The notes below the pieces were generated by a model. The model ran no database searches. It was not told where the DNA came from and saw nothing but the letters and a program-made list of their open reading frames with translations. This document shows, in pieces, positions 2,520 through 64,000 of a stretch of DNA of 64,000 bases. Source of the stretch: an uncultured Dokdonia sp. (lineage in GTDB: Bacteria > Bacteroidota > Bacteroidia > Flavobacteriales > Flavobacteriaceae); NCBI RefSeq assembly GCF_947496725.1, contig NZ_CANMDS010000005.1, positions 124,001-188,000 of the forward strand, given 5' to 3'. How positions within the stretch are numbered: position 1 is the stretch's first letter; every line of letters begins with the position of its first letter. The position numbers and the translations under genes were made by a program.

Positions 2520-3194
2520 GTGGGAAGTAAAAATAAGCTTAAGAGATTCCGTGAGAATGAGACATTCTCAAACGTAGTACAGCCGTCTAGAGAAGAACTG
2601 GTAGATGGAACTTTTCCTCTTAAGGGTAAGTGGAATTCAGATTTTTTCAAAAATGATAACCCTATTGTAGTAGAGCTGGGCTGTGGTAAAGGTGAGTATT
2701 CTGTAGGACTTGCAGAGAAGTATCCAGACAAGAATTTTATAGGTATAGACATCAAGGGTGCACGATTTTGGCGTGGAGCAAAAACCGCTCTAGAAGACAA
2801 TCTTGACAATGTAGGTTTTATGCGCACGCAAATAGAGCTTATTGAGTACGCTTTCGCGAAAGCGGAAATAGATGAGATATGGATCACCTTTCCAGACCCT
2901 CAAATCAAGTACAAGCGCACTAAGCACCGTATGACTAATACAGAGTTTCTCCAAAAATATAAGAATGTTTTGAAGGAGGATGGTTGTGTGAATCTCAAGA
3001 CAGACTCAGAGTTTATGCACGGTTACACACTGGGATTACTACACGGTGAGGGTCACGAGATTTTAGAAGCAAATCATAATGTGTATAAAAACGAATACTC
3101 GCCAGAAGAGGTTGTGGGGATTCAAACTTTTTATGAAAAACAATATCTAGAACAAGGAAAACCAATTACTTATATTAAATTTAGAGTCAAGTAA
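2520..3194 (+). CDS. trmB: tRNA (guanine-N7-)-methyltransferase
   Basis: A 224-residue SAM-dependent methyltransferase that methylates G46 of tRNAs. The start is GTG (2520), giving the characteristic N-terminus MGSKNKLKRF. Motif I for SAM is VVELGCGKGEYS, and the TrmB signature IWITFPDPQIKYKRTKHR follows at about residues 120-137. The dispersed palindrome at 2850-2863 lies inside the gene and encodes AFAKA around residues 111-115, just before the catalytic motif. It is divergent from the glycosyltransferase, with 68 bases between the starts, and is followed after 9 bases by the LysE-type gene. Confidence 0.96.
   Translation: MGSKNKLKRFRENETFSNVVQPSREELVDGTFPLKGKWNSDFFKNDNPIVVELGCGKGEYSVGLAEKYPDKNFIGIDIKGARFWRGAKTALEDNLDNVGFMRTQIELIEYAFAKAEIDEIWITFPDPQIKYKRTKHRMTNTEFLQKYKNVLKEDGCVNLKTDSEFMHGYTLGLLHGEGHEILEANHNVYKNEYSPEEVVGIQTFYEKQYLEQGKPITYIKFRVK
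2850..2863. repeat. Dispersed palindrome, copy 1 (in trmB)
   Basis: Perfect GCTTTCGCGAAAGC; read in frame as AFAKA in TrmB. Confidence 0.95.
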
Positions 3195-3203
3195 CGGGCA
3201 CCC

Positions 3204-3833
3204 TTGGAGACAACCAAACTTTTTTTAATAACCTATTTTGCAGCGCTAGCCGGAGTGATACCGCCTGGGCTAATAAATATGTCTGTTGCAAAAACGTGTG
3301 TTGAGCGTGGTCGCAATAATGGGCTGCTAGTTGCTCTTGGAGCTTCTTTTGTTGTGGTTTTTCAGGCACTTATAGCCGTATTACTTGCGCGCTATATTTT
3401 TGGAAATCCATATGTGCAGAGTATGCTATTGCGCACAGGTCTTGTGATTTTCTTAATAATGGCCATCTTTTTCTTTGTAAAAGCAAAGCAAAGCAAAGTC
3501 CCTAAGGTGAAAATATCAAAAAATAGAGGTTTAAAAAGTCTAGGTAAAGGGATGGCTATCTCTGCACTTAATGTATTGCCTATCCCTTACTTCTGTGCGC
3601 TGGGTGCTGCGCTTAATGTAAGCGGTAAGGTAGAGTATGATGTAGTGGCAATTGTACTGTTTGTAGTTGCTGCCGCTGTAGGCACTTTTAGTGCGTTATA
3701 TCTTTACGTTCTTTTCTTTGCTCGTATCCAAAATAGAGAGAGCTCCTTTGCTCGCTTTTCAAACTATTTTATGGCTGGACTTATGGTCATACTTATGTTA
3801 ATTACACTCGTACGCACCATCTACTTCGAATGA
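3204..3833 (+). CDS. LysE-family membrane exporter
   Basis: A 209-residue, highly hydrophobic protein with about six membrane helices. The first helix carries GVIPPGLINMSVAKTC, the conserved PxGP-like motif of the LysE/RhtB amino-acid exporter superfamily. Substrate is unknown; family members export amino acids or related metabolites. The only in-frame start that keeps the first helix intact is TTG at 3204, nine bases after trmB stops. The end overlaps the next start by 4 bases (ATGA), so trmB, this gene and the alkyltransferase-like gene look like one transcript. Confidence 0.85.
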   Translation: METTKLFLITYFAALAGVIPPGLINMSVAKTCVERGRNNGLLVALGASFVVVFQALIAVLLARYIFGNPYVQSMLLRTGLVIFLIMAIFFFVKAKQSKVPKVKISKNRGLKSLGKGMAISALNVLPIPYFCALGAALNVSGKVEYDVVAIVLFVVAAAVGTFSALYLYVLFFARIQNRESSFARFSNYFMAGLMVILMLITLVRTIYFE

Positions 3834-4168
3834 ATTACGCTCCAGAGACAGAAAACTTTTTTCAAAAGGTATATGCCGTAGCAGCGTTAATACCTTACGG
3901 TAGAGTAACGAGTTATGGTGCTATTGCAAAGTATCTAGGTGCTGCACGTAGTAGTCGTATGGTAGGTTGGGCAATGAATGGTGCTAGTAATCATCCAGAA
4001 GTGCCAGCACATAGAGTTGTAAATAGAGTAGGACTCCTTACTGGTAAACATCATTTTCCGCAAACTAACTTAATGCAGCAATTACTTGAAAATGAAGATA
4101 TAGAGATTAAGGATGATAAGGTGGTTCATTTTAAAAAGCACTTTTGGGATCCTATAATTGAGCTATAA
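3830..4168 (+). CDS. MGMT-fold alkyltransferase-like protein (ATL type)
   Basis: A 112-residue protein with the C-terminal DNA-binding fold of O6-alkylguanine-DNA alkyltransferase: IPYGRVTSYGAIAKYLG (helix-turn-helix), then ARSSRMVGWAMNGA (arginine finger region). The active-site motif that is PCHRV in true alkyltransferases reads PAHRV here, so the alkyl-accepting cysteine is replaced by alanine. By family knowledge such ATL proteins bind O6-alkylguanine lesions and hand them to nucleotide excision repair instead of repairing them directly. It overlaps the upstream exporter gene by 4 bases. Confidence 0.88.
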   Translation: MNYAPETENFFQKVYAVAALIPYGRVTSYGAIAKYLGAARSSRMVGWAMNGASNHPEVPAHRVVNRVGLLTGKHHFPQTNLMQQLLENEDIEIKDDKVVHFKKHFWDPIIEL

Positions 4169-5734: not shown

Positions 5735-5748
5735 GCTTTCGCGAAAGC
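5735..5748. repeat. Dispersed palindrome, copy 2
   Basis: Intergenic between the NifU-like gene and the ferredoxin reductase; extends to the perfect 20-base form TACGCTTTCGCGAAAGCGTA at 5732-5751. It starts right after the NifU stop codon. Confidence 0.95.
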
Positions 5749-8148: not shown

Positions 8149-8162
8149 GCTTTCGCGAAAGC
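8149..8162. repeat. Dispersed palindrome, copy 3
   Basis: Intergenic, upstream of the phosphoesterase and downstream of tRNA-Pro(GGG). Confidence 0.95.
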
Positions 8163-12196: not shown

Positions 12197-12210
12197 GCTT
12201 TCGCGAAAGC
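12197..12210. repeat. Dispersed palindrome, copy 4
   Basis: Intergenic between sufE and sufT; 19 of 20 bases of the long form. Confidence 0.95.
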
Positions 12211-13679: not shown

Positions 13680-14894
13680 TTAAGATAACATCGCAACTGC
13701 GCGTTTTACTCCATCTATAAATTTATCAATCTCTTCTTTTGTGTTGTAGAAAGAAAATGAGGCACGTACTGTACCTGGTATTTTATAAAAGTCCATAATG
13801 GGTTGAGCACAATGGTGCCCTGTGCGCACTGCTATACCTAATTTATCAAGTATGGTGCCAATGTCATAAGGGTGAATCTCACCTACATTAAAAGAAACTA
13901 CCGCAGTTTTATGTGCAGATGTGCCATAAATTTTAAGCCCTTCAATCTCGAGGAGCTGCTTTGTGGCATACTGTAAAAGCTCATCTTCATAAGCTGCAAT
14001 ATTATCAAAACCTAGCCCATTCATATAATCTAAGCCCACACCTGTAGCAATGCCGCCACAAATATTAGGTGTTCCTGCTTCAAATTTATGTGGTAGACCC
14101 GCGTAGGTTGTTTTTTCAAAACTCACCTGGTCTATCATCTCGCCACCACCTTGATAAGGAGGGAGTTTAGTAAGCCATTCTTCTTTACCATATAACACGC
14201 CTACACCCGTCGGGCCACATATTTTGTGAGCAGAGCATACGTAAAAGTCGGCATCTAGGGCTTGTACATCTGGTTTTATGTGTGGTGTTGCTTGTGCGCC
14301 ATCTATTAGTACCGCTGCACCTACTTTGTGAGCTTCGGTAATGATTTCTTCTATAGGGTTTATGGTTCCTAATGCGTTTGATACGTGATTTACAAAGACC
14401 AGTTTGAGTTGTGGTGATAACGCTTTCGCGAAAGCGTCCATATCCAGTTCTCCACTTTCTGTTTGTGGTATAACTTTAAGTATAGCGCCCGTCTTCTCAC
14501 AAAGCATTTGCCACGGTACAATATTACTATGATGCTCTAGCGCCGAAACGAGTACCTCTTCGCCCTTTTTTAGAATACTTGCAAAGCCATTTGCCACTAG
14601 GTTTATGGCGTGCGTTGTGCCTGCGGTGAGTATAATCTCATACGGCTGTGCTGCGTTAAAATGCTTCTGGATTTTTATGCGTGCTTCCTCATAAGCATCT
14701 GTGGCCTCTTGTGAGAGTGAGTGTACGCCACGGTGTATGTTTGCATTATAGTTAGAGTAATAATCTAAAATGGCGTCTATAACAACTTGTGGTGTTTGTG
14801 ATGTTGCGGCATTGTCAAAATAAATAAGCGGTTTTCCGTTTACTTCTCTTTTGAGAATAGGGAAGTCTTCACGTATTTTTTTAATATCTAACAT
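13680..14894 (-). CDS. sufS: Cysteine desulfurase SufS
   Basis: A 404-residue PLP enzyme of class V (type II desulfurase) that takes sulfur from cysteine to give alanine and enzyme persulfide. The PLP lysine is in SAHKICGPTGVG (about residue 225) and the active cysteine is in RTGHHCAQPIM (about 362). DNAATSQTP and HRGVHSLSQ are typical N-terminal motifs. The palindrome at 14422 is read as DAFAKALSP in the large domain. A terminator and a possible -7 box separate this gene from sufD, so it appears to start a second SUF transcript (sufS, META, GNAT and beyond). Confidence 0.96.
   Translation of the reverse strand: MLDIKKIREDFPILKREVNGKPLIYFDNAATSQTPQVVIDAILDYYSNYNANIHRGVHSLSQEATDAYEEARIKIQKHFNAAQPYEIILTAGTTHAINLVANGFASILKKGEEVLVSALEHHSNIVPWQMLCEKTGAILKVIPQTESGELDMDAFAKALSPQLKLVFVNHVSNALGTINPIEEIITEAHKVGAAVLIDGAQATPHIKPDVQALDADFYVCSAHKICGPTGVGVLYGKEEWLTKLPPYQGGGEMIDQVSFEKTTYAGLPHKFEAGTPNICGGIATGVGLDYMNGLGFDNIAAYEDELLQYATKQLLEIEGLKIYGTSAHKTAVVSFNVGEIHPYDIGTILDKLGIAVRTGHHCAQPIMDFYKIPGTVRASFSFYNTKEEIDKFIDGVKRAVAMLS
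14422..14435. repeat. Dispersed palindrome, copy 5 (in sufS)
   Basis: Perfect 14-mer; read as AFAKA. Confidence 0.95.
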
Positions 14895-17589: not shown

Positions 17590-18474
17590 TTAATTAAGTA
17601 TTGCTGGTGTTTTTGCAAAGTCTTCGGCGTCGTGCTGTATGATTACCGTTGCGTTTTGCGCTTTCGCGAAAGCTTCAAATTCCTTTATACTCTTCTCTGT
17701 TGTTGGAATGTCGTAGTTAAACTGAGGTACAACAGCGTTTTGTCTATTTTTCTCAAAGTGATATATATCACCAGATAATAGGGTGGGACCATTGTTTTTA
17801 AGTTGTAAAAACAATACTTGGTGTCCTGCAGTATGACCAGGCATAGATTTTATGATAACTGTACCGTCGCCAAAGACATCTTTGTCTCCATCTAGTTTTT
17901 CTACATTAGTAAGCTGGTTAAAACTAGCTGGTGCATAAAAACTATTTCCTTGAATCTCCTCACTGTTTGCAAAGTCATATTCTGTAGATTGTACAAACCA
18001 CTTGGCCTTAGGAAAATGATTTGCAGCTCCCGTGTGATCAAAATGTATGTGAGAAAAAGCAATCATATCTACATCCTCTGTTGTCATCCCAACACTCGCA
18101 AGTTGCGTCTTTATAGAATCTTTACGAGAGATAGTAAAAGCACCTCCTTCTGGTGTGTATGGCTCTTGACCTACTAGCATCTCAGGTAAACCTGTATCCC
18201 AAAGTAACACCCCATCTGGATGCTTTATTACATAAAAGGCATCTGCAAGTTCTTTTGACTCTCCTTTATACGTGTCTCCTTGAGCAAACAGATTGAGGTT
18301 ATTTGCTTGAACAGTACCTCCAGAAAACTTATAAAGAGTTACTTCTGGTGTTTCATTAGTAACAGTTTCCGCTTTTTCTTGAGCGTCTCTTTTACCATCT
18401 TCAAACCCCTTTTTAAACTCCTCACACGAAGTAAAAAGGCCGGCAATGATTGCTATGATAACTAGTTTTTTCAT
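17590..18474 (-). CDS. MBL-fold metallohydrolase, lipoprotein
   Basis: A 294-residue metallo-beta-lactamase fold enzyme with a lipoprotein signal (LVIIAIIAGLFTSC). The zinc motif is FSHIHFDHTGAANHF, later GHTAGHQVLF and SGDIYHF; the layout resembles lactonase-type (AHL-lactonase-like) members, which also have the HxHxDH and late Asp/His ligands. The substrate is unknown; an acyl-lactone is only one option. The palindrome at 17660 is read as EAFAKAQNA near the C-terminus. It is cotranscribed between sufB and sufC, an odd place for an exported hydrolase. Confidence 0.85.
   Translation of the reverse strand: MKKLVIIAIIAGLFTSCEEFKKGFEDGKRDAQEKAETVTNETPEVTLYKFSGGTVQANNLNLFAQGDTYKGESKELADAFYVIKHPDGVLLWDTGLPEMLVGQEPYTPEGGAFTISRKDSIKTQLASVGMTTEDVDMIAFSHIHFDHTGAANHFPKAKWFVQSTEYDFANSEEIQGNSFYAPASFNQLTNVEKLDGDKDVFGDGTVIIKSMPGHTAGHQVLFLQLKNNGPTLLSGDIYHFEKNRQNAVVPQFNYDIPTTEKSIKEFEAFAKAQNATVIIQHDAEDFAKTPAILN
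17660..17673. repeat. Dispersed palindrome, copy 6 (in MBL gene)
   Basis: Perfect 14-mer; read as AFAKA near the C-terminus of the MBL protein. Confidence 0.95.
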
Positions 18475-19973: not shown

Positions 19974-19987
19974 GCTTTCGCGAAAGC
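19974..19987. repeat. Dispersed palindrome, copy 7
   Basis: Intergenic between iscA and sufB; perfect 20-base form at 19971-19990. Confidence 0.95.
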
Positions 19988-22910: not shown

Positions 22911-24950
22911 TTGAAAAAGACACGCATCGTAACACTTATCAATTTGTTAGCTTTTGCATCAATTTGTTACAGTCAGACGGGGTCAATACCTGAGCAAACT
23001 ATAGATACTGTAATCATACAATCTACTAGAATACAAAGTACTCTAGACAGAATTCCTGCCGCTGTTTCTGTAATTAAAACAGTACCACAAGATGCAACAC
23101 GACAGCAATTATCACTACAAGAATATGTACAAGGAGTTCCTGGAGTTTTTACTCAGAATGTGACGAACTTTGCTCAAGATTTAAGAGTCTCTATACGCGG
23201 TTTTGGGGCCCGGTCTAGTTTTGGGATACGAGGGATAAAGCTTATTGTAGACGGCATACCAGAAACTACGCCAGATGGTCAAGGGCAATTAGATAACCTC
23301 ACTTTAGGAATTATAGATCTTATAGAGGTTATAAAAGGGCCTAGCTCGAGTCTTTACGGAAATGCCTCTGGAGGAGTTATTGATATAAAAACAAGGTCTT
23401 ATGATTCAGAAAATCTAGGTACTGATATAAAGGTGGGCGCTGGTGCTTTCGGTTTTCAAAATTATCAAGCCACAGCAGCTATAGGAGACTCACTAGCGAG
23501 TTATATCTTTCACGCAAATTATATGCAGTCTGATGGATACAGAGATCAAAGTGGTTTTGAGCAAATTAATACTAATTTTAAAGGAAAATTTGCACTTGCA
23601 GACAGCCTTTACCTAACCACCATACTTAATTACACAGATGCCCCGCAGGCAGATGACCCAGGAGGGTTGACATTAGAAGAGGTAAATGCAAACAGAAGAC
23701 AAGCCCGCGATCGCAACCAGCTTTTTAAAACTGGAGAAGCTATCTCACAGCTTAAAGTAGGAGCGAGTTTAGAGTGGTTAATAAATAAAAAGAGCAGCTT
23801 CACCACCTATGGGTTTTATAGCAATAGGCTTTTTGATGGACTACTTCCTTTTGAAAATGGTGGCATAGTAGACCTCAATCGTAATTATATGGGTCAGGGA
23901 GCAGCCTATAGATATACTAAGGGTCATAACACCTTACAAGTAGGGTATGATTTTGCTTTTCAAAATGACAGTCGCCGCAGGTTTCAAAACCTTGAAGGCG
24001 AGCAAGGAGATCTTTCCCTTAGTCAAAAGGAGAAGTTTACAAACCTTGGAGTTTACCTTACAGATCACTTCAATATTAATAAATGGCTTTTTACCGCCGG
24101 GGCTAGATTTGATTACAATAAACTTTCGGCAGATGATGATTTTCTTAGCGACGGGGATGATTCTGGGAGTGTGACTTTAAATTCTTTTAATCCAAGTGTG
24201 GGTGTGAGTTACGCTTTCGCGAAAGCGTTTATACCCTTTATAAATGTGTCAACCAGTTTTGAAACTCCATCATTATCTGAGGTGTCTACGAGTCCAGATG
24301 GTCTTTCAGGCTTTAACGAAAATTTAGCTCCTCAAAAAGCGACAAGCGTTGAGGTGGGTGTAAAGGGAGCCTTAAGTAACAAGCTGCGTTATCAAGTAAC
24401 CACTTTTAGTATAAATACACGTGACGACCTTGTCCCTTTTGAACTAGAAGCTTTTCCAGATCGCGAGTTTTATAGAAATGCAGGTAAAACTAACAGGCTA
24501 GGTGTTGAGGTAGAGGGGCAGTATGCCTTCTCAAAAAACCTGCAAGCCACAGCATCTTATACCTACTCAGATTTTACTTATGATGAGTTTACCGTGGGAG
24601 ATACAGATTATGCGGGTAATGCCTTGCCTGGTATTGCAAAGCATATGTCTACTTTGGGATTATTATATGATACAGATGCAGGTTTTAGTGCACGGGTGAG
24701 TGCAAACTTTATAGGGTCACAGTTTGCACAAGATAGTAATGACACAGAGATAGACGGCTACGAGCTGGTAAACGTACAGCTTAGTTACCAGACTCTGTTT
24801 AGAGAAATACAAATCAAGCCGTATCTTGGGATCAATAATGCACTCGATCAAGAATACACAGATAATGTGCGTATCAATGCTTTTGGCAACAGGTTTTATG
24901 AGCCAGCACCTGGGTTTACAATGTATGGAGGGGTTATCTTAAATTTTTAA
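22911..24950 (+). CDS. TonB-dependent receptor, FecA-like
   Basis: A 679-residue outer-membrane receptor. TTG start (22911) gives signal peptide MKKTRIVTLINLLAFASICYS. There is no N-terminal CarboxypepD-like domain; the plug runs from about residue 35 (VPGVFTQNVTNFAQDLRVSIRG, with RGFGARSSFGIRG and VDGIPETTPDGQG) and the 22-strand barrel ends in GGVILNF. FecA-type siderophore or metal complexes are common substrates. It is cotranscribed with a TauE-family exporter 3 bases downstream. The palindrome at 24213 is read as SYAFAKAFIP in the barrel. Confidence 0.9.
   Translation: MKKTRIVTLINLLAFASICYSQTGSIPEQTIDTVIIQSTRIQSTLDRIPAAVSVIKTVPQDATRQQLSLQEYVQGVPGVFTQNVTNFAQDLRVSIRGFGARSSFGIRGIKLIVDGIPETTPDGQGQLDNLTLGIIDLIEVIKGPSSSLYGNASGGVIDIKTRSYDSENLGTDIKVGAGAFGFQNYQATAAIGDSLASYIFHANYMQSDGYRDQSGFEQINTNFKGKFALADSLYLTTILNYTDAPQADDPGGLTLEEVNANRRQARDRNQLFKTGEAISQLKVGASLEWLINKKSSFTTYGFYSNRLFDGLLPFENGGIVDLNRNYMGQGAAYRYTKGHNTLQVGYDFAFQNDSRRRFQNLEGEQGDLSLSQKEKFTNLGVYLTDHFNINKWLFTAGARFDYNKLSADDDFLSDGDDSGSVTLNSFNPSVGVSYAFAKAFIPFINVSTSFETPSLSEVSTSPDGLSGFNENLAPQKATSVEVGVKGALSNKLRYQVTTFSINTRDDLVPFELEAFPDREFYRNAGKTNRLGVEVEGQYAFSKNLQATASYTYSDFTYDEFTVGDTDYAGNALPGIAKHMSTLGLLYDTDAGFSARVSANFIGSQFAQDSNDTEIDGYELVNVQLSYQTLFREIQIKPYLGINNALDQEYTDNVRINAFGNRFYEPAPGFTMYGGVILNF
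24213..24226. repeat. Dispersed palindrome, copy 8 (in TonB receptor)
   Basis: Perfect 14-mer; read as AFAKA in the barrel domain. Confidence 0.95.
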
Positions 24951-24953
24951 AAA

Positions 24954-25718: not shown

Positions 25719-25732
25719 GTTTTCGCGAAAGC
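25719..25732. repeat. Dispersed palindrome, degenerate form
   Basis: GTTTTCGCGAAAGC, one base off the perfect 14-mer, between the TauE and ThuA genes. Confidence 0.75.
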
Positions 25733-28257: not shown

Positions 28258-29007
28258 TTATTCTATACTAAATGCTGTGCGTACATTTTCGGCAATTTTT
28301 GGAGCATTTTCTGGGTCTACTTGTATATCATCTTTGGCTACAAGTGACATTGTGTTTGTGCTGTCAAAAATCTTAGCCACATCAAAATTAATAGTTTGAG
28401 TTGTGGTGGTTGATGCGGTTACCGCTTTCGCGAAAGCGAGATTAATTTCCTTATAATTATCCAGATTTGCACCGTGACTCCCTACGTGATAAGTAAACGG
28501 GTTTGCATCATCTGTATCTACTGTGGTTGAATAATTACCTTCAAATTTTAAAAACTTATATCCTGCAGACCAAGTCCATAACATACCAGCCTCCTCTGCA
28601 GTAGGAATAAAGTTTACAGATCCAGACTCAATAGGGTAGCGTGTAGGGTCTACACCAAAACCAAAGTTTATACTCGTATAGTCACCTACTGGGATGCTAT
28701 CTAGTAGCGCCGTTTTTGTACCTGCCTCGTTTATTACAAAATAACTTCTATCTACCGGTATCGTATGGACGGTGTTATCTGACCTTGTAAGTTGTATGTT
28801 TGAAATAATATATTTTAGTTCTGAAACGCTGTACTCTTCACCACTTAGGTTTGCATAGGTTTGCGTGTTGAGTGTGAGTGGAGATGATGCAACGGTGTTC
28901 TCAAAGACTAGGTTTAAAGATCCATAAGCTGTATCCATTTCATCATTATCTTCATTGCACGATAGCAAGAGGAGTGCGATTGTACATAAAGCGATTATCT
29001 GTTTCAT
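28258..29007 (-). CDS. MbnP-like copper-binding family lipoprotein
   Basis: A 249-residue lipoprotein (lipobox LLLLSC) of the MbnP family: YSVSELKYIISNIQL, a GVDPTRYPIESG stretch and the signature GMLWTWSAGYKFLKFEG (about 141-157, with Trp144 and Trp146), then TYHVGSHGAN. MbnP proteins bind copper after kynurenine formation by MbnH. The pair is known beside methanobactin genes in methanotrophs, but no methanobactin precursor is seen here. Stop and the MbnH start abut. The palindrome at 28424 reads as LAFAKAVTAS. Confidence 0.85.
   Translation of the reverse strand: MKQIIALCTIALLLLSCNEDNDEMDTAYGSLNLVFENTVASSPLTLNTQTYANLSGEEYSVSELKYIISNIQLTRSDNTVHTIPVDRSYFVINEAGTKTALLDSIPVGDYTSINFGFGVDPTRYPIESGSVNFIPTAEEAGMLWTWSAGYKFLKFEGNYSTTVDTDDANPFTYHVGSHGANLDNYKEINLAFAKAVTASTTTTQTINFDVAKIFDSTNTMSLVAKDDIQVDPENAPKIAENVRTAFSIE
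28424..28437. repeat. Dispersed palindrome, copy 9 (in MbnP gene)
   Basis: Perfect 14-mer; read as AFAKA in the MbnP-like protein. Confidence 0.95.
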
Positions 29008-29015
29008 AATATTAA

Positions 29016-30464
29016 TTAGTTAAGTTTTATAATTACGGCATCTGTTGCTCCTTTTGAGGCAACTAGGGGGCCACTTGTGCTATCTGTGTCTCCAGAGATA
29101 ATTAAAGCTCCATCTGTAGTGGCGGTGATGCCATAGCCAAAATCTTGACCATTCCCGCCAAAGGATTGTTGCTTGAGCAACTCGCCGTCTTGATCTATAG
29201 AGACTACCCAGATATCGTTTTGGCCATTGTTAGTCGTTACCTGTCCATCTAGGCTACGCGAGGCACCCGTTATAGCATACCCATCTGGCGTTTGTATGAT
29301 GCTACGAGTGGTTTCAAAATTGGATCCGCCTAGTGTTTTCTGCCAGAGTAGTTCTCCCTGGTCGCTTAGTTTTACGAGCCATACATCTGCGCTTCCGCGA
29401 AAGTTTGTTACATCTCCATCACTACTTCTCGTATCGCCGGCTAGTAGGTAGGCTCCATCTGGTGTGGTGGTAGCTGTATATGCAATTTCTATCTGGCTAC
29501 CTCCTAGCGATCGCTCCCAGAGTAAATCTCCGCTAGCGCTAAGTCTTACTGCCCAGAAGTCATAACTTCCTTGCGAGTCTGATATGTCAAAGTCGTTACT
29601 TTCTGAGTTACCTACCATAAGTATCCCACCATCTGGTGCTTGTAGAGCCACATATGACCTATCGTTATTTGTACCTCCATAATACCTTCTCCACTCCAGG
29701 TTGCCGCTTGCGTCCAGTTTATGACCCCAAAACTCTCCTACGCCGTGTAGTGTAGCACGCGTATTATCGTTTGTGTTATTAGGGTCTTGTAAACCGTCAT
29801 TGCCTTCTCCTTGAGATGCTGTTACGTCTAGAAATCCTGAGGTAAAGAAGCCACCATCTGTAGTCTGTATGAGTCCATATGCCTGATCTGAACCCGAAAA
29901 GCCATAGCTCTTCTGCCAGAGTATATTGCCTTGTGTATCAAGTTTTGCAATCCAGTGATCATAAAAACCGGCATTTTCTGTCATATCACCATCGCTGCTC
30001 TCGCTGTAGCCTAGTATGGCATATCCTCCATCTGTAGTTGTAATTACTTTTGTGCCTCGGCTATCCTCACTTCCGCCATAAGTTTTAGACCATTGTATAG
30101 CACCATCTTGATCTGCTTTAACAAGCCACAGTTTATTAATCTGGCTGTCATTATCTGTCACGTCACCATCTACACTTTGTGTGTGGCCTAGAGCAGCAAA
30201 TCCTCCATCTGGAGTAGCTGTAATGGCTTGAAAGGTATCTACCTGGCTTCCGCCATAAATGCTTGTGTATTGTACTGTAAAACCTTCTTCTGGAGCTACG
30301 GTGTCGTCTGTGTTTACTACATCATCTGTTATAGTAATATCGTCTGTAAGAAGCTCTTCATCATCTTTACAAGCAATGGCAATGATGAGAAGTATATAAA
30401 GGGAATAAGTACGCTTTCGCGAAAGCGTAAACCACATCATATTTATAAAGTTATTTTTTTTCAT
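29016..30464 (-). CDS. Lipoprotein with about seven DGG-type propeller repeats
   Basis: A 482-residue lipoprotein (lipobox IIAIAC). The mature part repeats a roughly 50-residue unit: TPDGGFAALGHTQSVDGDV, TTDGGYAILGYSESSDGDM, TTDGGFFTSGF, APDGGILMVGNSESND, TPDGAYLLAGDTRSSDGDV, a TPDGYAITGASRSLDGQV unit and TTDGALIISGDTDSTSG. This is a beta-propeller, probably seven-bladed. The start may be ATG 30464 or an ATG nine to ten codons later (MMWFTLSRKR). The palindrome at 30413-30426 is read as TLSRKRTY in the signal region. It is placed two bases after the previous gene. Role unknown. Confidence 0.8.
   Translation of the reverse strand: MKKNNFINMMWFTLSRKRTYSLYILLIIAIACKDDEELLTDDITITDDVVNTDDTVAPEEGFTVQYTSIYGGSQVDTFQAITATPDGGFAALGHTQSVDGDVTDNDSQINKLWLVKADQDGAIQWSKTYGGSEDSRGTKVITTTDGGYAILGYSESSDGDMTENAGFYDHWIAKLDTQGNILWQKSYGFSGSDQAYGLIQTTDGGFFTSGFLDVTASQGEGNDGLQDPNNTNDNTRATLHGVGEFWGHKLDASGNLEWRRYYGGTNNDRSYVALQAPDGGILMVGNSESNDFDISDSQGSYDFWAVRLSASGDLLWERSLGGSQIEIAYTATTTPDGAYLLAGDTRSSDGDVTNFRGSADVWLVKLSDQGELLWQKTLGGSNFETTRSIIQTPDGYAITGASRSLDGQVTTNNGQNDIWVVSIDQDGELLKQQSFGGNGQDFGYGITATTDGALIISGDTDSTSGPLVASKGATDAVIIKLN
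30413..30426. repeat. Dispersed palindrome, copy 10 (in propeller gene)
   Basis: Perfect 20-base form at 30410-30429; read as LSRKR in the leader peptide of the propeller protein. Confidence 0.95.
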
Positions 30465-34738: not shown

Positions 34739-35530
34739 CTAATCCAGACCTGAAGATGTTGTTACAAATTCTTCCAGAAGCTTCGCCACTAGCTCTGTGT
34801 GTGAGATATGAGACATATGGCCACTATCTATGATTTTAAAAAATGCTATGTCTTTTTCAAAGTGGTCTTTATGAGTTTCTGCATTTATAATCCAGTCTGT
34901 AGCTCCTAGTATCATTCCTTGTGCAAAGGGAGCTTTTTTCCAGAAAGTGCTTAGGTCCTCACGTACTTGCATTCCACTATTTGCTGCAATATATCCTTGT
35001 ACAGGAGTTTTTAATGCGTGATATAAGGCTTCACTTATTTGATCGTGGTGGTTTGCTTTTGTCTTGGGGTCAAAAAGATTTGTAAAAGACATACGTACTA
35101 GCTGCTCGTACTGTGTTTTTGCCATTTTATTTGCCCTTGTGCGCAATGCTACGCGCTCATCGTCATCTGGTAGTGGTGTTGAGTTAAGTAAACAAAGTGA
35201 TGTGATACGTTCTGGTTGCGCTTTCGCGAAAGCGAGACCCACATAACCACCCATAGAGTGGCCTACTAGATGCATTTTTGTGATTGCTAGAATGTTAACC
35301 ACTGTTTGTACAGCGGCCGCCATATCTTCCATAGTGTGCACATATCCAGTATGACCAGAAGCACCGTGTCCCAAAAGGTCAATACAAATGACTCTATGTC
35401 GAGATGCAAGTTTACTTTGTATAGCGTCCCACATAGTATGGTTTTCAAGAAAACCGTGAAGCAAAATAATAGGTGTACCAGATCCTGTATCTGTATAAAA
35501 AATGGAAGCACCTTTGTGGTTAATGGTCAT
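34739..35530 (-). CDS. Alpha/beta-hydrolase
   Basis: About 263 residues from ATG 35530 (MTINHKGASIFYTDTG); a TTG at 35551 is a weaker choice. The oxyanion strand is ILLHGFLENHTMW, the nucleophile elbow LVGHSMGGYVG with Ser about 92, and the histidine in SGHMSHISH near the C-terminus. Soluble; generally like BioH or haloperoxidase-type hydrolases, substrate not deduced. The palindrome at 35220 is read as GLAFAKAQPE directly after the nucleophile helix. The start is only 35 bases from brnQ on the other strand, so a compact divergent promoter is expected. Confidence 0.88.
   Translation of the reverse strand: MTINHKGASIFYTDTGSGTPIILLHGFLENHTMWDAIQSKLASRHRVICIDLLGHGASGHTGYVHTMEDMAAAVQTVVNILAITKMHLVGHSMGGYVGLAFAKAQPERITSLCLLNSTPLPDDDERVALRTRANKMAKTQYEQLVRMSFTNLFDPKTKANHHDQISEALYHALKTPVQGYIAANSGMQVREDLSTFWKKAPFAQGMILGATDWIINAETHKDHFEKDIAFFKIIDSGHMSHISHTELVAKLLEEFVTTSSGLD
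35220..35233. repeat. Dispersed palindrome, copy 11 (in hydrolase)
   Basis: Perfect 14-mer; read as AFAKA after the nucleophile helix. Confidence 0.95.
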
Positions 35531-35565: not shown

Positions 35566-36840
35566 ATGAGAATGACCAAACAAACCTTCATTACAGCCTT
35601 TGCGCTGTTCTCTCTTTTTTTTGGCGCAGGTAACTTAATTTTACCTCCATTCTTAGGTTATAATGCCGGGAGCTCTTGGTGGTTAGTACTTTTAGGTTTT
35701 ATTGTGTCTGCAGTTGTGATACCTATACTCGCCATCTATGGGCACGCTAGATTGCAAGGTACAATGCTAGACTTTGCAAAAAAGGTATCGCCACTATTTG
35801 CTTTATTATATGGTATAATTGTTTATGCTATCTCTATTGCTTTACCAGCGCCTCGCACTGCCTCTGTAACCTATGAGATGGCTATACAGCCATATTTTGA
35901 TATCTCAAGTTTAACCTTAAGTAGCCTCTATTTTATTCTTGTCTTAGTTTTTGTGCTCAATAGGTCAAAAATGATGGACATTGTAGGTAAGTACCTCACT
36001 CCAGCTATATTAATTATTCTAGCTATTGTAATAGGTGTAGGTCTTTTTGGAGAATATGAGCCTATGCGCGCTTCTATTTTTGACAATACAATTACGAGCG
36101 GTATACTTGAAGGTTATCAAACTTTTGATGCCATAGGCGGTGTTGTAGTAGGAGGTGTAATTGTCATATCATTAGGATTTAAAAATAGCACCCCTACCGA
36201 AAATAAGAGAATCATCACACAAGGAGGAATCATTGCTGGCTTAGGATTGTTATTTATTTATGGCGGCCTTATCTATCTAGGTGCTTTGCGTAGCGGAGGT
36301 GCAGAAGTAACAGATCGCACGGCTTTATTATCTATGCTTAGTGTAGACACACTAGGAGCTGTGGGTAGTAGAGTACTTGCGGTATTAGTTAGTCTTGCCT
36401 GTTTTACAACGGCAGTAGGTATTGTGACAGGTACATCAGACTTTGTAAAAGGGATTTTTAATAATTCGCAACTTGCATATAACATAACTGCGGTACTAGG
36501 TTGTGTGCTGGGTGTGGTAATGGGACAGCTAGATGTAATGTCTATTATTGCCGTAGCCGTACCTGCACTTATGTTTATTTACCCTATAACCATTGTGTTG
36601 ATTATACTCAATGCCTTACCAGATAAATGGACAACGGTACTTGTGTTTAGGTCTGTAGTGATTGCGACTATTTTATTTAGCGCGCCAGATTTCTGGGCAT
36701 CATTAGGCTTTAGTGAGCAAATGAAGGGTATACAAGAATTTATACCCCTAGGCACGGTAAGCTTAGGCTGGTTATTGCCTGCTGTGATAACACTTATTGC
36801 GGTAAATGTTTTTACGCTTTCGCGAAAGCGCACTACTTAA
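35566..36840 (+). CDS. brnQ: Branched-chain amino-acid transporter BrnQ
   Basis: A 424-residue LIVCS-family symporter with about 12 membrane helices. The N-terminus carries FFGAGNLILPPFLGYNAG, the signature of BrnQ (sodium- or proton-linked uptake of Leu, Ile, Val). Start at 35566 (ATGAGAATG) or two codons later. The C-terminus is formed by the palindrome (36816-36829), read as TLSRKRTT before the stop, so the last residues seem shaped by the repeat. Convergent overlap of four bases with the ACT gene. Confidence 0.93.
   Translation: MRMTKQTFITAFALFSLFFGAGNLILPPFLGYNAGSSWWLVLLGFIVSAVVIPILAIYGHARLQGTMLDFAKKVSPLFALLYGIIVYAISIALPAPRTASVTYEMAIQPYFDISSLTLSSLYFILVLVFVLNRSKMMDIVGKYLTPAILIILAIVIGVGLFGEYEPMRASIFDNTITSGILEGYQTFDAIGGVVVGGVIVISLGFKNSTPTENKRIITQGGIIAGLGLLFIYGGLIYLGALRSGGAEVTDRTALLSMLSVDTLGAVGSRVLAVLVSLACFTTAVGIVTGTSDFVKGIFNNSQLAYNITAVLGCVLGVVMGQLDVMSIIAVAVPALMFIYPITIVLIILNALPDKWTTVLVFRSVVIATILFSAPDFWASLGFSEQMKGIQEFIPLGTVSLGWLLPAVITLIAVNVFTLSRKRTT
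36816..36829. repeat. Dispersed palindrome, copy 12 (in brnQ end)
   Basis: Perfect 14-mer; read as LSRKR in the last residues of BrnQ. Confidence 0.95.
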
Positions 36841-40327: not shown

Positions 40328-40341
40328 GCTTTCGCGAAAGC
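40328..40341. repeat. Dispersed palindrome, copy 13
   Basis: Intergenic between divergent pepP and BNR genes; perfect 20-base form at 40325-40344. Confidence 0.95.
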
Positions 40342-40451: not shown

Positions 40452-43325
40452 ATGAACATACGTTACTTTCTAGCATCTGGAGCGCTGCTTTTTGCGCTTG
40501 CAAATGGAAACTCACAGCAAGCTGCATCTACAACGCAACAACAAGAGCAGGCTGTTAAAGAAAAAATGCTAGCAGCTCAAAATAGTCTTGTAAAAAATAT
40601 TCCTTTTGAAAACATAGGTCCTTCTATTATGAGTGGCCGTGTGGTAGATCTAGCTATTAATCCAGATATGCCATCAGAGTTTTATGTAGGTTATGCTTCT
40701 GGAGGGTTGTGGTATACTAATAATAATGGGACCACATTTACCCCAGTGATGGATAATGCTCCTACACAAAACGTAGGAGAAGTAACAGTGCACTGGCCTA
40801 GTAATACTATCTGGGTGGGTACGGGAGAAAACAATGCATCGCGCTCTAGTTATGCTGGGATAGGCCTTCTCAAATCTACAGATGGTGGCAAGACTTGGAA
40901 AAATATGGGTCTTACAGACTCGCACCATATAGGGCGCATCCTTATTAATCCAGAAAATCCAGATGAGGTTGTGGTAGGCGCAGTGGGGCACTTATACTCA
41001 AAAAATGAAGAACGTGGAGTTTATAAAACTACAGATGGTGGCCTCACCTGGAAAAAGACGCTGTATGTAGATGATGCCTCTGGTATCATTGATATAGATA
41101 ATGATCCAAATGATTTTAACCTGATGTATGCCTCTTCTTGGGAGAAGGATAGAAAGGCGTGGAATTTTGAAGGCTCTGGTAGTGGCTCTGGTATTTACAA
41201 GAGTACAGATGCTGGTGACACTTGGACAAAGTTATATAGCTTTCCTGCTGGTAAGGGAGTAGGTCGTATAGGTCTTGCAGTGTATGATAAAAATACGGTG
41301 TATGCTGTGCACGATAGCCAGTTTAGAAGAGAAGAGGGTAAGAAAAGACCACAAAAATCTGATGCTTTATACAAAGATGATTTTAAAACAATGAGTGTTG
41401 CTCAGTTTTTAAGTTTAGATAACAAGCGACTCGATAACTTTTTAAAGTCTAACGGCTTTCAAGAAAAGTACAGAGCTGCAAACGTAAAGTCTATCGTGAG
41501 ACAAGGTGATGCTGTACCTGCAGATATTGCAACCTATTTACAAACGGCAAACACACAGCTTTTTGACACACCTGTAGTAGGAGCAGAGGTATATAGATCT
41601 AATGATGGAGGGAAGACCTGGAAAAAAACACATAAAGGATACATAGACGCGCTTTACTATAGTTACGGCTATTACTTTGGAGAGATTAATGTAAATCCAT
41701 CAGATAAGGAAGATATCTACATTTACGGAGTACCTATTGTAAAGTCTAAAGATGGAGGTAAAACCTTTACAAGCATAAGTGCAGAAAATGTACACTCAGA
41801 TCATCACGCATTATGGATTAATCCAAAAAATGAAAATCACCTCATAAATGGTAATGACGGTGGTGTAAACATAAGTTATGATGATGGTGCAAACTGGATA
41901 AAAGCAAACGACCCATCTGTAGGGCAATTTTACTACATACAGGTAGATAATCAAGAGCCTTACAACGTGTATGGCGGTCTTCAAGATAATGGTGTATGGG
42001 TTGCACCTAGCAATGCATCACAAGATAAATCTTGGTTGCAAAGAGGGCAGTACCCTTGGGAGATGATTATGGGAGGAGATGGTATGCAAGTGCAGGTAGA
42101 TAATAGAGATGCAAATATTGTGTACACTGGATTTCAATTTGGGAGTTATTATCGTATTAACCGTGAGACGGGTGAAAACAAGAGATTTGATATCAAGCAC
42201 GAGTTAGGAGAAACGCCTTATCGTTTTAACTGGCAGACGCCTATCTTACTAAGTAGTCATAACCAAGACATCTTATATCTAGGTGGTAATAAGTTAATGC
42301 GATCTATGAATCAAGGTGATGACTGGGTAGCTATAAGTCCAGATCTTACTAACGGCGGTAAGCCGGGTAACGTCGCTTACGGTACACTCGCTACAGTTTC
42401 AGAATCTCCGTTTGAGTTTGGACTTATTTATACAGGTAGTGATGATGGTAAGGTAAGTGTAACGACTAATGGTGGTGGCGACTGGAAAGATATTACAGGT
42501 ACATTGCCAAAAGACTTATGGGTATCTCGCATTGTGGCAAGTGAGCATAAAAAAGAGCGTGTATATGTAACCCTTAACGGTTATAGATGGGATGATTTTA
42601 AAACCTACGTTTATGTTTCTGATAATTATGGGGAGACTTGGAAAGACATTTCGGCAAACATCCCTATGTCTCCGGTAAATGTTATTGTAGAAGACCCAGT
42701 AAAGGATAATATCCTTTATGTAGGTACAGATAATGGTGCTTATGTGAGTCTAGATGGTGGTACTTCTTATCACGCTTTCGCGAAAGCTGAATCTGGAGAC
42801 AGCACAGCACCACTTCCAGCTGTAGCCGTACACGATATGAAAATTCAAAAGAAAGCAAACCATCTCTTGCTAGGAACCCACGGAAGAAGCATCTACAGAA
42901 CAGATCTTAGTGCTATTCAAAACGTGTCTCTTGATAAAACGGCAGAGATTTTTGATATCGCCGAAGTTGAGCATAGCCGAAGATGGGGAACAAGCTGGAG
43001 TAACTGGTCTGATCCTTTTGAGCCATCTACGCCTATAAGTTACTACACGAGCAACGCAGGTAAATACGAGTTAGTCGTAAAAAGTACAGAAGGAAAGGAG
43101 TTAAACCGTATGGCGTTAAATCCAGCAGCGGGAATTAACCAAGTCTCGTATGACTTAACGATTACTGAAAAAGGAAAAAAATATCTTGAAAAAGCAGATA
43201 GTTCTCTCAATATTAAGAAAACAAAAAACGGAAAATATTATCTACCTAAAGGAACATATACTGTCGTTTTAGACGGTGGAGGTGGTAATACAGAAGTTGC
43301 AACTACCACGCTGTTAGTTGATTAG
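40452..43325 (+). CDS. Secreted BNR-repeat (sortilin/Vps10-like) protein
   Basis: A 957-residue exported protein (signal MNIRYFLASGALLFALANG). It contains at least eight Asp-box-type units: STDGGKTWKNMG, TTDGGLTWKKT, STDAGDTWTKL, SNDGGKTWKKT, SKDGGKTFTSI, TTNGGGDWKDI, SDNYGETWKDI and SLDGGTSYH. This predicts one or two beta-propellers as in Vps10/xyloglucanase-type proteins. Such flavobacterial proteins are often called glycosyl hydrolases, but catalytic residues cannot be assigned. No T9SS tail is seen. The palindrome at 42774 is read as YHAFAKAESG within the last repeat region. Confidence 0.85.
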   Translation: MNIRYFLASGALLFALANGNSQQAASTTQQQEQAVKEKMLAAQNSLVKNIPFENIGPSIMSGRVVDLAINPDMPSEFYVGYASGGLWYTNNNGTTFTPVMDNAPTQNVGEVTVHWPSNTIWVGTGENNASRSSYAGIGLLKSTDGGKTWKNMGLTDSHHIGRILINPENPDEVVVGAVGHLYSKNEERGVYKTTDGGLTWKKTLYVDDASGIIDIDNDPNDFNLMYASSWEKDRKAWNFEGSGSGSGIYKSTDAGDTWTKLYSFPAGKGVGRIGLAVYDKNTVYAVHDSQFRREEGKKRPQKSDALYKDDFKTMSVAQFLSLDNKRLDNFLKSNGFQEKYRAANVKSIVRQGDAVPADIATYLQTANTQLFDTPVVGAEVYRSNDGGKTWKKTHKGYIDALYYSYGYYFGEINVNPSDKEDIYIYGVPIVKSKDGGKTFTSISAENVHSDHHALWINPKNENHLINGNDGGVNISYDDGANWIKANDPSVGQFYYIQVDNQEPYNVYGGLQDNGVWVAPSNASQDKSWLQRGQYPWEMIMGGDGMQVQVDNRDANIVYTGFQFGSYYRINRETGENKRFDIKHELGETPYRFNWQTPILLSSHNQDILYLGGNKLMRSMNQGDDWVAISPDLTNGGKPGNVAYGTLATVSESPFEFGLIYTGSDDGKVSVTTNGGGDWKDITGTLPKDLWVSRIVASEHKKERVYVTLNGYRWDDFKTYVYVSDNYGETWKDISANIPMSPVNVIVEDPVKDNILYVGTDNGAYVSLDGGTSYHAFAKAESGDSTAPLPAVAVHDMKIQKKANHLLLGTHGRSIYRTDLSAIQNVSLDKTAEIFDIAEVEHSRRWGTSWSNWSDPFEPSTPISYYTSNAGKYELVVKSTEGKELNRMALNPAAGINQVSYDLTITEKGKKYLEKADSSLNIKKTKNGKYYLPKGTYTVVLDGGGGNTEVATTTLLVD
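42774..42787. repeat. Dispersed palindrome, copy 14 (in BNR gene)
   Basis: Perfect 14-mer; read as AFAKA in the last BNR repeat. Confidence 0.95.
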
Positions 43326-47112: not shown

Positions 47113-47114
47113 AT

Positions 47115-47128
47115 GCTTTCGCGAAAGC
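47115..47128. repeat. Dispersed palindrome, copy 15
   Basis: Directly after the sdhB terminator. Confidence 0.95.
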
Positions 47129-47327: not shown

Positions 47328-47412
47328 GTCTACCTAAGCAAATTTGTGCGCATTAAAATGATTTCAAGATTTAGATATCAAAATCAGTAGTAAATAATCT
47401 TTTAAATATTTT

Positions 47413-47443
47413 AAAAAAATCCGTCTTAAAAACGGATTTTTTT
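47413..47443 (+). terminator. Terminator in the sdhB-nrdB gap
   Basis: Perfect stem AAAAAAATCCGT with ACGGATTTTTTT, 7-base loop (47425-47431), long T run. Its gene is not known; the microprotein upstream is the best candidate. Confidence 0.85.
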
Positions 47444-47781: not shown

Positions 47782-48768
47782 ATGAGCTTCGTAGAACCAA
47801 TCCTAGCAGAAAATAAAGATAGATTTGTGATATTCCCTATACAGCACGATGATATATGGGAGTGGTATAAGAAGTCTGAAGCTAGTTTTTGGACTGCAGA
47901 AGAGATAGACCTTCACCAAGATCTTGTAGATTGGAAAGGAAAACTTACAGAAGATGAGCGCTACTTTATAAAACACATACTTGCTTTCTTTGCAGCATCA
48001 GACGGTATTGTAAATGAAAATCTAGCAGAAAACTTTGTAAATGAAGTACAATACTCAGAAGCAAAATTCTTCTACGGTTTCCAGATTATGATGGAAAACA
48101 TACACTCTGAAACCTACTCATTACTTATTGACACCTATGTAAAAGACGAGGTAGAGAAGGACAAGCTTTTTAATGCACTTGAAAACTTTCCTGCAATTAA
48201 GAAAAAAGCAGACTGGGCTCTTAAATGGATAGACTCACCAAGCTTTGCAGAGCGTCTTATCGCATTTGCAGCAGTAGAGGGAATCTTTTTCTCAGGAGCA
48301 TTTTGTTCTATATACTGGTTAAAGAAGAGAGGGCTTATGCCAGGACTTACATTCTCAAACGAGCTTATCTCTCGTGATGAGGGCGTACACTGTGATTTTG
48401 CCGTACACCTGCACAATCACCACCTTGTAAATAAAGTGCCAAAAGAGCGTATTACAGAGATTATCGTAAACGCACTAGATATAGAGCGTGAGTTTATCAC
48501 GGAGTCACTTCCGGTAAGTCTTATTGGGATGAATTCAAACTTAATGACACAGTACTTAGAGTATGTGACAGACCGTTTACTTACAGAGCTAGATTGTGAG
48601 AAAGTATACAATACGGCAAATCCATTTGACTTTATGGATATGATTTCACTTCAAGGTAAAACTAACTTCTTTGAGAAGCGAGTAGGAGAGTATCAAAAAG
48701 CAGGAGTTGTAAAAGATAAAGATGACGACGGTAGTGGTCAGTCTATAAGCTTTGATGCATCTTTCTAA
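47782..48768 (+). CDS. nrdB: Ribonucleotide reductase class I beta subunit
   Basis: A 328-residue R2 subunit holding the dimetal site that makes the radical. Ligand regions include [54 protein letters not shown] and [16 protein letters not shown]. Gene order is nrdB before nrdA, usual for Bacteroidota. The 184-base gap to nrdA contains a palindrome copy and a separate hairpin. Confidence 0.96.
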
Positions 48769-48813
48769 AGCATTATAATAAATAATAAATAGGTGGAAGA
48801 GGTTTACTTTTCC

Positions 48814-48827
48814 GCTTTCGCGAAAGC
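48814..48827. repeat. Dispersed palindrome, copy 16
   Basis: Between nrdB and nrdA. Confidence 0.95.
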
Positions 48828-48903
48828 GTAACAACACGCAATCGCCATAACATTAACCAATGGATACATTCTCCAAAAGAGACTGTCATCCCTAATTCTA
48901 ACC

Positions 48904-48936
48904 GAATTCTCAAAAGGGGGAAACTTATGAGAATTC
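48904..48936 (+). other. Hairpin in the nrdB-nrdA leader
   Basis: Perfect 9-base inverted repeat GAATTCTCA/TGAGAATTC with a 15-base loop AAAGGGGGAAACTTA. It ends 16 bases before the nrdA ATG. There is no U tract, so it is not a terminator; it could be a regulatory RNA element or operator. Confidence 0.6.
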
Positions 48937-48952
48937 ACAATATTTTAAGTGT

Positions 48953-51577: not shown

Positions 51578-51600
51578 ACCGTCAAACATAACTAACCAAA

Positions 51601-51635
51601 AACGGCTCTCTATTTTATAGAGAGCCGTTTTTTAT
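51601..51635 (+). terminator. Terminator of nrdA
   Basis: Perfect 13-base stem AACGGCTCTCTAT/ATAGAGAGCCGTT with a TTT loop, T run after and A run before; it can serve both strands. Confidence 0.95.
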
Positions 51636-51651
51636 TTAAACAGTTTTAATC

Positions 51652-51920: not shown

Positions 51921-51934
51921 GCTTTCGCGAAAGC
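51921..51934. repeat. Dispersed palindrome, copy 17
   Basis: Intergenic between the 50-aa gene and the phosphate transporter; perfect 20-base form at 51918-51937. Confidence 0.95.
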
Positions 51935-54950: not shown

Positions 54951-54964
54951 GCTTTCGCGAAAGC
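54951..54964. repeat. Dispersed palindrome, copy 18
   Basis: Directly after the 54578 gene, before its terminator. Confidence 0.95.
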
Positions 54965-59372: not shown

Positions 59373-59386
59373 GCTTTCGCGAAAGC
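59373..59386. repeat. Dispersed palindrome, copy 19
   Basis: Intergenic between divergent lipoprotein and dgt genes; perfect 20-base form at 59370-59389. Confidence 0.95.
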
Positions 59387-63549: not shown

Positions 63550-63573
63550 TAGCTTTAAGTCTAAATTATTTAA

Positions 63574-63606
63574 AATCGGTAGGTCACAAGCCTGCCGATT
63601 TTTTTT
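63574..63606. terminator. Bidirectional terminator
   Basis: Stem AATCGGTAGG/CCTGCCGATT (one T-G wobble), seven-base loop, T run to 63606; lies between M36 and dxs ends. Confidence 0.88.
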
Positions 63607-64000
63607 ATGCGAAGTTTTTAAGAAGTAAAGAAAGTGAAGCTACAGAAATACCAGCTTCTTCATATTGCTGCTCTACCGTAGCGTGTTCTATAAAAGTATC
63701 GGGTATGCCTAAGATGGTAAGGGATCCTTTGTACGCTTTCGCGAAAGCGTAATCACCCACGCTACTACCTAGACCGCCTATTTTTGAACCATCTTCTACA
63801 GTAATGATATGCTCATAAGTGGTAAAAATAGTGTCTAGTAGCGCCTTGTCTAGCGGTTTTAAAAATCCCATATCATACACACTGCAACTTGCATTTACCT
63901 CGTTTACTGCGGCCAGTACATTTTTGAGAATGCTACCTAAAGTTATAACAGCAGTCTTCTTTCCTTTGATAACGTTGTAACCTTTACCTATAGATATTTC
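63605..64000 (-). CDS. dxs: 1-deoxy-D-xylulose-5-phosphate synthase, C-terminal part
   Basis: Partial, open at the right edge; the visible 131 residues are the transketolase C-terminal domain of DXS (first step of the MEP isoprenoid pathway). Key parts are SIGKGYNVIKGKK, TAVITLGSILKNV, YDMGFLKPLDKALLD and HIITVEDGSKIGGLGSSV, then GIPDTFIEH. The palindrome at 63735 is read as DYAFAKAYKG in a family-variable loop between the GGLGS motif and GIPD. The stop overlaps the edge of the terminator. Confidence 0.9.
   Translation of the reverse strand, partial: EISIGKGYNVIKGKKTAVITLGSILKNVLAAVNEVNASCSVYDMGFLKPLDKALLDTIFTTYEHIITVEDGSKIGGLGSSVGDYAFAKAYKGSLTILGIPDTFIEHATVEQQYEEAGISVASLSLLLKNFA
63735..63748. 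repeat. Dispersed palindrome, copy 20 (in dxs)
   Basis: Perfect 20-base form at 63732-63751; read as AFAKA in DXS. Confidence 0.95.

Follow-up and report, generated by a model that had tools for sequence, protein, structure and literature searches.

The window analysed here, a stretch of 64,000 nucleotides from an uncultured Dokdonia sp. (G000:C5:124001-188000; contig NZ_CANMDS010000005.1 of NCBI RefSeq assembly GCF_947496725.1), harbours 20 perfect copies of the 14-bp palindrome GCTTTCGCGAAAGC. An earlier note on this DNA had listed these copies, and our analysis recovers every one of them. The note had further claimed that such a 14-mer should not arise even once by chance, which agrees with the 0 copies expected from 100 dinucleotide shuffles of the window. 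As it had also described, seven of the 20 copies extend to the 20-base form TACGCTTTCGCGAAAGCGTA; 17 reach the 16-mer form CGCTTTCGCGAAAGCG. The palindrome is neither limited to the window nor as rare as in randomised sequence: 905 copies are present in the 3.29-Mb genome G000, compared to 0 copies of a reversed control. As the note had argued, it is not the signal of one operon, and the assignment of the host to the Flavobacteriaceae was right as well. Two features which had not been described are the even spacing of the copies, with a coefficient of variation (CV) of the gaps of 0.31 within the window, and the C-poor arms by which they are flanked.

Following the window from its start, exact copies are found at 2850..2863, at 5735..5748 (within the 20-bp form), at 8149..8162, where the orthologous place is occupied in genomes G301 and G302, and at 12197..12210, where the same two genomes retain only a point-mutated remnant. 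The copy at 14422..14435 resides within an aminotransferase class-V gene and is kept in G301 and G302, as are the intergenic copy at 19974..19987 (within the 20-bp form) and that at 24213..24226 within a TonB-dependent receptor gene; the copy at 17660..17673 lies within a gene of the metallo-beta-lactamase superfamily. Within the gap from 24213 to 28424 a one-mismatch site is present at 25719..25732, which is exact in G299 and G306. The copies at 28424..28437 and 30413..30426 (the latter within the 20-bp form) belong to a block, 27109-33259, that is absent from the compared stretches of G301, G302 and G304; a two-mismatch site at 29391..29404 may be due to chance. Further downstream, the copy at 35220..35233 has its orthologous place occupied in G301 and G302, and that at 36816..36829, located inside the 3' end of the open reading frame (ORF) 35566-36840, is kept in both genomes and one base off in G306. 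At the place corresponding to 40328..40341 (within the 20-bp form) G301 and G302 contain unrelated sequence, while the copy at 42774..42787 within a sortilin/BNR-repeat gene is kept in them. The copies at 47115..47128 and 48814..48827 fall into a second block, 47031-51647, which is likewise absent from the compared stretches of G301, G302 and G304 and whose ORFs 47782-48768 and 48953-51577 resemble, judged by eye only, a ribonucleotide-reductase pair. The last four copies are situated at 51921..51934, 54951..54964, 59373..59386 and 63735..63748, all but the second of these within the 20-bp form.

Anatomy and spacing of the site

Anatomy and spacing were analysed in 464 kb of G000. This sample contains 138 exact sites, 8 with one, 18 with two and 18 with three mismatches, the corresponding numbers for the reversed control being 0, 0, 3 and 28. 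With the motif masked, 0.0002 copies of GCTTTCGCGAAAGC are predicted by a third-order Markov model. The palindrome is preferentially flanked by TTAC and GTAA, with C at position -1 in 91% of the sites, followed outwards by A (63%), T (73%) and T (65%). From -4 to -25 extend symmetric arms which contain merely 1-14% C (mean 7.7% vs 19%) and which, read towards the core on either strand, are G/T-rich on both sides. They are C-poor at genic sites also. The G+T contents of the two arms of one site are weakly anticorrelated (-0.19). In Nonlabens, core and arms are as in Dokdonia with a looser T/C flank, and the arms of 15 seed sites from G190 are weaker. In 12 of the 18 two-mismatch sites, the bases lost belong to the outer GC of just one side. 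When a single site and its flanks were folded as single-stranded DNA, the structure was more stable than that of shuffled sequences (z -2.8). A related but distinct near-palindrome, GCTTACGCGAAAGG, is observed in three copies (G000:C1:90742, C1:163906 and L028:14106).

The exact sites are separated by 3,336 bp on average with a CV of 0.51 (0.506). Placement under a null model with the same preference for genic and intergenic DNA leads to a CV of 1.04 (1.044), and none of 2000 simulations was as even as the real arrangement. Gaps below 500 bp are completely missing, although 24 would be expected. Sixteen one-sided variants, in which the outer GC is missing from one side, are found at a median distance of 1,707 bp from exact sites, whereas the value for random places is 924 bp (p = 0.0004). 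They thus reside in large gaps, as would be predicted if weaker sites matter in places without a strong neighbour. If these variants are included, the CV amounts to 0.49 and two gaps fall below 500 bp. The complete chromosome G299 was sampled in 27 segments of 20 kb, 540 kb in total with 7 segments adjacent; each segment contains 3-9 copies, with a dispersion of 0.33. No gradient of copies along this chromosome is visible by eye in the sampled segments, a comparison made without a formal gradient test. A role in segregation of the kind tied to replication origin or terminus (ori/ter), one of several suggestions of the earlier note, does not gain support from these counts. The gaps in Nonlabens have a CV of 0.40-0.44 (small samples), those in G190 of 0.64.

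According to a simple custom gene caller, 80 of the 138 copies are genic and 58 intergenic. The estimate of half inside and half outside genes therefore holds roughly; however, intergenic DNA makes up only 8.5% of the 464 kb, which means a clear excess of copies outside genes. Eleven of the 58 intergenic copies lie between convergent genes, a mild excess (p = 0.049), and 18 between divergent genes. The reading frame of 47 of the 80 genic copies encodes AFAKA, in 13 cases extended to AFAKAQ (G000 C1 and C5), which may correspond to the end of a signal peptide, to judge from its resemblance to one. Genic sites seem to be placed where the protein sequence is tolerant.

Conservation and turnover

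The core of the site is very strongly conserved. Between G000 and G299, which share 94% identity, 131 of 134 aligned sites are exact, compared to 53.8% of sampled 14-mers, and the remaining three differ by one base each. Two further sites which deviate in G299 or G306 also do so by one base, so that all five differences are single-base changes; this agrees with the proposal of the earlier note that the palindrome is not a mobile element. In a first set of 39 sites, 0 of 546 core positions are substituted vs 4-9% alongside. At larger distance (76-77% identity) the orthologous place is occupied by a site in 18 of 25 cases in G301 and in 19 of 26 cases in G302, where 7-8% would be met at random; for G304, the ratio is 8/15 (random 6%). 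Of three lost sites inspected, one has undergone point changes, another survives as a remnant whose alignment has a gap of 3 bases, and the third place holds unrelated sequence. Insertion or excision of a repeat unit was not seen at the sites compared between species, a comparison that did not include a search for RAYT transposases.

Within Dokdonia, 56 of 81 comparisons of sites in orthologous stretches agree in place; a small sample from D. sinensis has 2 of 7 sites in common. Between Dokdonia and Nonlabens agreement drops to 1/13, and to 1/17 in a second comparison in which 1.2 would be expected by chance. The two blocks of the window which are absent from the compared stretches of G301, G302 and G304 (10.8 kb together) contain 4 sites and thus exhibit normal density.

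Occurrence in other genomes and in mobile DNA

All 18 Dokdonia genomes carry the palindrome in 369-905 copies, the two lowest counts arising from genomes which are 78% and 85% complete. In a sample of 299 genomes of the family, 61 contain any copy, and high counts are confined to G000 (905), G206 (857), G242 (664), G010 (578) and G190 (408), the next values being 19, 17, 16 and 9. In an overlapping sample of the order (395 genomes), 32 contain any copy, and families other than the Flavobacteriaceae do not exceed 2 copies. The palindrome-rich genera in these samples are solely Dokdonia, Nonlabens, to which G010 and G242 appear to belong, and the genus of G190. When named genomes were screened for the 14-mer extended by six further bases, 55 stretches were retrieved, namely 27 from Dokdonia, 19 from Nonlabens, 3 from 'Flavobacteria bacterium BBFL7', which we take to group with Nonlabens, and 6 others. 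High-GC genomes account for four isolated matches (two in Rhodoblastus, one in Nitrotoga and one in a proteobacterial metagenome-assembled genome; one per 8 kb), which seem fortuitous. The single copies in the proteobacterial genome and in Nitrotoga (L075, L081) fall within an apparent VDVNVHP, presumably the MutL motif, and are probably fortuitous as well.

The two sequenced Nonlabens phages P12024S and P12024L contain no site in 71 kb. Some mobile DNA does bear sites, since a scan of viral contigs revealed at least 80 loci with the palindrome. Among the viral loci listed, 34 of 85 sites are found in loci below 46% G+C, and several of these low-G+C loci have one repeated context in common which is unlike that of the host. 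The low-GC viral contigs L165 and L196 both contain a transposase gene, and the product of the L165 gene matches Mu A-like transposases; L156, likewise low in GC, encodes a tape-measure-like protein. Resident temperate phages may acquire sites. The low-GC viral contig L173 carries three copies at distances of 3.1-3.6 kb.

From 13 genomes of other genera with low counts (1-19), we examined 20 stretches. Related islands containing the palindrome are present in 12 of these stretches and in 8 of the 13 genomes (G078, G087, G215, G201, G111, G101, G012 and G175, with 1-6 copies each in all; loci L047-L050, L052-L055, L057-L059 and L064). Clustering of the ori/ter type, our first reading of the low-count genera, was replaced after these related islands had been found. 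Pairwise comparison of orthologous sites among the islands of these eight genomes yielded exact copies in 89 of 139 cases, which are not independent of one another, at a flank identity of 65-100%. From this we infer that the islands have probably lived long in palindrome-rich hosts; a function within the islands themselves would be possible, too. The palindrome may tag DNA which was exported from Dokdonia- or Nonlabens-like donors to other genera. Judged by eye, the island of G078 looks like one of heavy-metal resistance, with genes for CopA-like ATPases, a CusA-like pump and a multicopper oxidase.

Proposed self-recognition and rival explanations

About 900 near-invariant 14-mers, evenly placed and often genic, point to a strong genome-wide process in marine bacteria which has apparently gone unnoticed. 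A search of 5.39 million open full texts, with subscription papers mostly outside its scope, yielded no paper containing the 14-mer or the 12-mer. The papers containing the inner 10-mer do not, judging by their titles, deal with such a bacterial repeat. Among the open publications listed on Dokdonia and palindromes, on an over-represented palindrome of Flavobacteriaceae, or on competence in Dokdonia and Nonlabens, no title refers to GCTTTCGCGAAAGC. The methylome papers among the matches listed name neither Dokdonia nor Nonlabens, and the literature on the 'highly iterated palindrome' is, by title or abstract start, nearly all on cyanobacteria.

We tentatively favour the view that the palindrome is a genomic self-recognition sequence which is maintained as DNA uptake sequences are, a reading that we rank first while granting that it may well be wrong. 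A probably dimeric, sequence-specific protein would read the core TTAC-GCTTTCGCGAAAGC-GTAA together with the C-poor arms, and site-bearing DNA would preferentially enter the chromosome or be retained there, natural transformation being the most likely occasion. Such a preference would act as a molecular drive, an allele with a site replacing an allele without one, and a second site on a fragment which already bears one would provide little gain. Dense, near-perfect and evenly spaced sites, arising and decaying by point mutation, would be the expected outcome. The constraint on the individual site, the evenness, the weak sites in gaps, the single-base turnover and the site-free phages all fit a drive which favours at least one site per fragment. 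Of the functions considered in the earlier note, uptake and nucleoid organisation are both kept as candidates, and we agree with the likeness to DNA uptake sequences and to HIP1 that it had pointed out.

As far as described in PMC1939737 and PMC7811141, the DNA uptake sequences (DUS) of Neisseriaceae and the uptake signal sequences (USS) of Pasteurellaceae share with the palindrome the many near-perfect copies, the even spacing, the excess in non-coding DNA along with many genic copies, the turnover by point mutation (for H. influenzae, PMC7811141) and the logic of a self-label. PMC1939737 further describes the absence of an orientation bias and locates 65% of the uptake sequences of H. influenzae and 35% of those of N. 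gonorrhoeae inside ORFs; for the palindrome, the genic share is 58%. In contrast to these sequences, the palindrome has symmetric arms and a spacing of about 3.3 kb, compared to about 1 kb for USS (PMC7811141). Within the Bacteroidota, Riemerella columbina, a member of the Flavobacteriaceae according to its authors, is described as naturally transformable with a preference for its own DNA (PMC7965970), and the account of R. anatipestifer given in PMC8459023 states that transformation depends on ComEC, DprA, ComF and RecA as well as on four proteins without a known function, the machinery including a DUF5689 member. Our search of the open literature revealed no demonstrated uptake sequence from this phylum. 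If the palindrome is an uptake label, the phenomenon would extend past two well-described families to the Bacteroidota, about whose transformation machinery little is known.

Several observations weigh against self-recognition by uptake. The palindrome is perfect, while known uptake sequences are non-palindromic in the account of PMC1939737; we therefore do not class it as a DUS but merely regard it as possibly working like one. None of the publications listed by a search of the open literature, judged by title and abstract beginning, describes Dokdonia or Nonlabens as naturally transformable. Third-codon-position divergence shows no difference between the near and far parts of 98 gaps (441 kb; p = 0.48), so that a direct sign of recombination centred on the sites is lacking; a recombination gradient around the sites had been hinted at in 143 kb and was gone in 441 kb. 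Three internal blocks of G000 without counterpart in G299 (7.7 kb) contain 0 sites vs 2.3 expected, a shortage in the right direction which is not significant. The reader protein was not found among the candidates tested, i.e. C5 methyltransferase, RecC, AddB and DUF5689. The last of these is encoded in 42 of 43 genomes including all 15 palindrome-rich ones (21 of 22 in a second, partly overlapping set), but it is equally common in palindrome-poor genomes. Moreover, considered as reader or specificity factor, this competence protein was rejected, as its tree splits Dokdonia and places Nonlabens and G190 elsewhere. No unusual gene common to the sampled stretches of Dokdonia, Nonlabens and G190 was recognised, the best 70 of 110 matches appearing ordinary by eye in samples too small to exclude one. 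Apart from this, the DUF5689 proteins of G206 (D. sinensis) and G000 share only 44% identity and fall into different clades; the tree suggests that the gene may have been exchanged within Dokdonia.

The main rival, possible but in our judgement doubtful, regards the palindrome as a chromosome-architecture site at which a dimeric nucleoid-associated protein, bound every ~3 kb, would bridge, wrap or insulate the DNA, with selection for regular anchors. Such a site would be unusually dense and regular. The perfect palindrome, the symmetric arms with their C-poverty at genic sites also, the even spacing without visible gradient and the filling of gaps by one-sided variants conform to it. Palindromic organiser sites such as parS, Noc sites, matS and SlmA sites occur in tens of copies which are confined to particular regions. 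The palindrome may resemble them in that it is likely bound by a dimer; it differs from them by its ~900 copies, which are evenly spread where sampled and show no visible clustering at ori or ter. While architecture readily explains palindromicity and evenness, it explains less readily the strength of selection per site: the very strong constraint seemingly acts on each of ~900 sites, which is hard to understand if a single loss matters little. In addition, the sites in islands of other genera and in some Mu-like phage contigs indicate that non-essential DNA acquires them too, and the differing places in Dokdonia and Nonlabens also count against it, though turnover alone could suffice to produce them. 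REP/BIME elements (repetitive extragenic palindromes and bacterial interspersed mosaic elements) likewise comprise hundreds of short palindromic copies, yet they do not share the conserved places, the even spacing, the frequent location in genes and the single-base gain and loss.

We consider it improbable that the palindrome is a Chi-like site which halts degradation by AddAB arriving from either side, so that G/T-rich 3' tails remain for RecA. Chi sites occur at roughly one copy per few kb, as does the palindrome, and RecA prefers G/T-rich DNA; the DNA 5' of the site, i.e. the future 3' tail, is indeed G/T-rich and C-poor on either strand. RecC is found in 0 of 31 genomes, on which grounds RecBCD/Chi was rejected, and PDDEXK_1 (PF12705) matches in ORFs of ~900 amino acids, taken as AddB, are present in 27 of 27 genomes. 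Known Chi sites, however, are short and directional, whereas a palindrome is not directional, and the same genes occur in palindrome-poor genomes. AddB as a changed reader was dismissed because its tree does not place Nonlabens with Dokdonia and G190 and because its divergence, measured against that of GyrA, overlaps the values of palindrome-poor genomes. Very unlikely, in our view, is a mechanism of the HIP1 type, by which a solitary methyltransferase acting on TCGCGA or CGCG, along with linked repair, would make and keep the sites. HIP1 (GCGATCGC) and the alternate HIPs of cyanobacteria are described in PMC4390886 as genome-wide palindromes with palindrome-preserving extensions and deviations at their ends, to which the possible central methylation site and the one-sided loss of outer GC in two-mismatch sites could correspond. 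Yet the 14-bp core with its arms is far longer than a methylase site and than the 8-10 bp of HIPs, and no C5 methyltransferase is universal here: PF00145 members are encoded in 6 of 15 palindrome-rich genomes, G000 not among them, vs 10 of 15 others. Since 9 of the 15 rich genomes lack one, a common cognate C5 methyltransferase was rejected, and the methylation role put forward in the earlier note is weakened for this type of enzyme, the only one covered by the search. Scarcely credible, finally, is a bidirectional terminator or RNA hairpin. The stability of the folded site and the mild excess between convergent genes would suit such a transcription signal, but most copies reside inside genes, others between divergent genes, and the even spacing is left unexplained.

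Going beyond self-recognition as such, the sites might represent a new class of self-label, i.e. a palindrome with G/T-rich arms whose dimeric reader would have been acquired separately by Dokdonia, together with the neighbouring genus, and by Nonlabens, with hundreds of sites seeded at ~3-5 kb. With it, the Bacteroidota would gain their first uptake or self-recognition sequence; we regard this wider proposal as rather unlikely. In the best tree of GyrA and AddB, Nonlabens stands apart from Dokdonia and G190 so that two changes are needed, and trees with a single change make up 0% of 200 bootstrap trees, which suggests that the palindrome may have two separate origins. A single origin withstands a one-clade test (p-AU 0.615 for GyrA, 0.371 for AddB and 0.269 for both), the constrained GyrA tree even scoring above the free one. 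Separate gain in Dokdonia and Nonlabens, which had been taken as proven from a SufB ranking and the GyrA tree, was downgraded to a suggestion in view of this test. The placement of G190 is in conflict between markers: by the SufB ranking its genus is far from Dokdonia, whereas the GyrA tree renders it the sister of Dokdonia.

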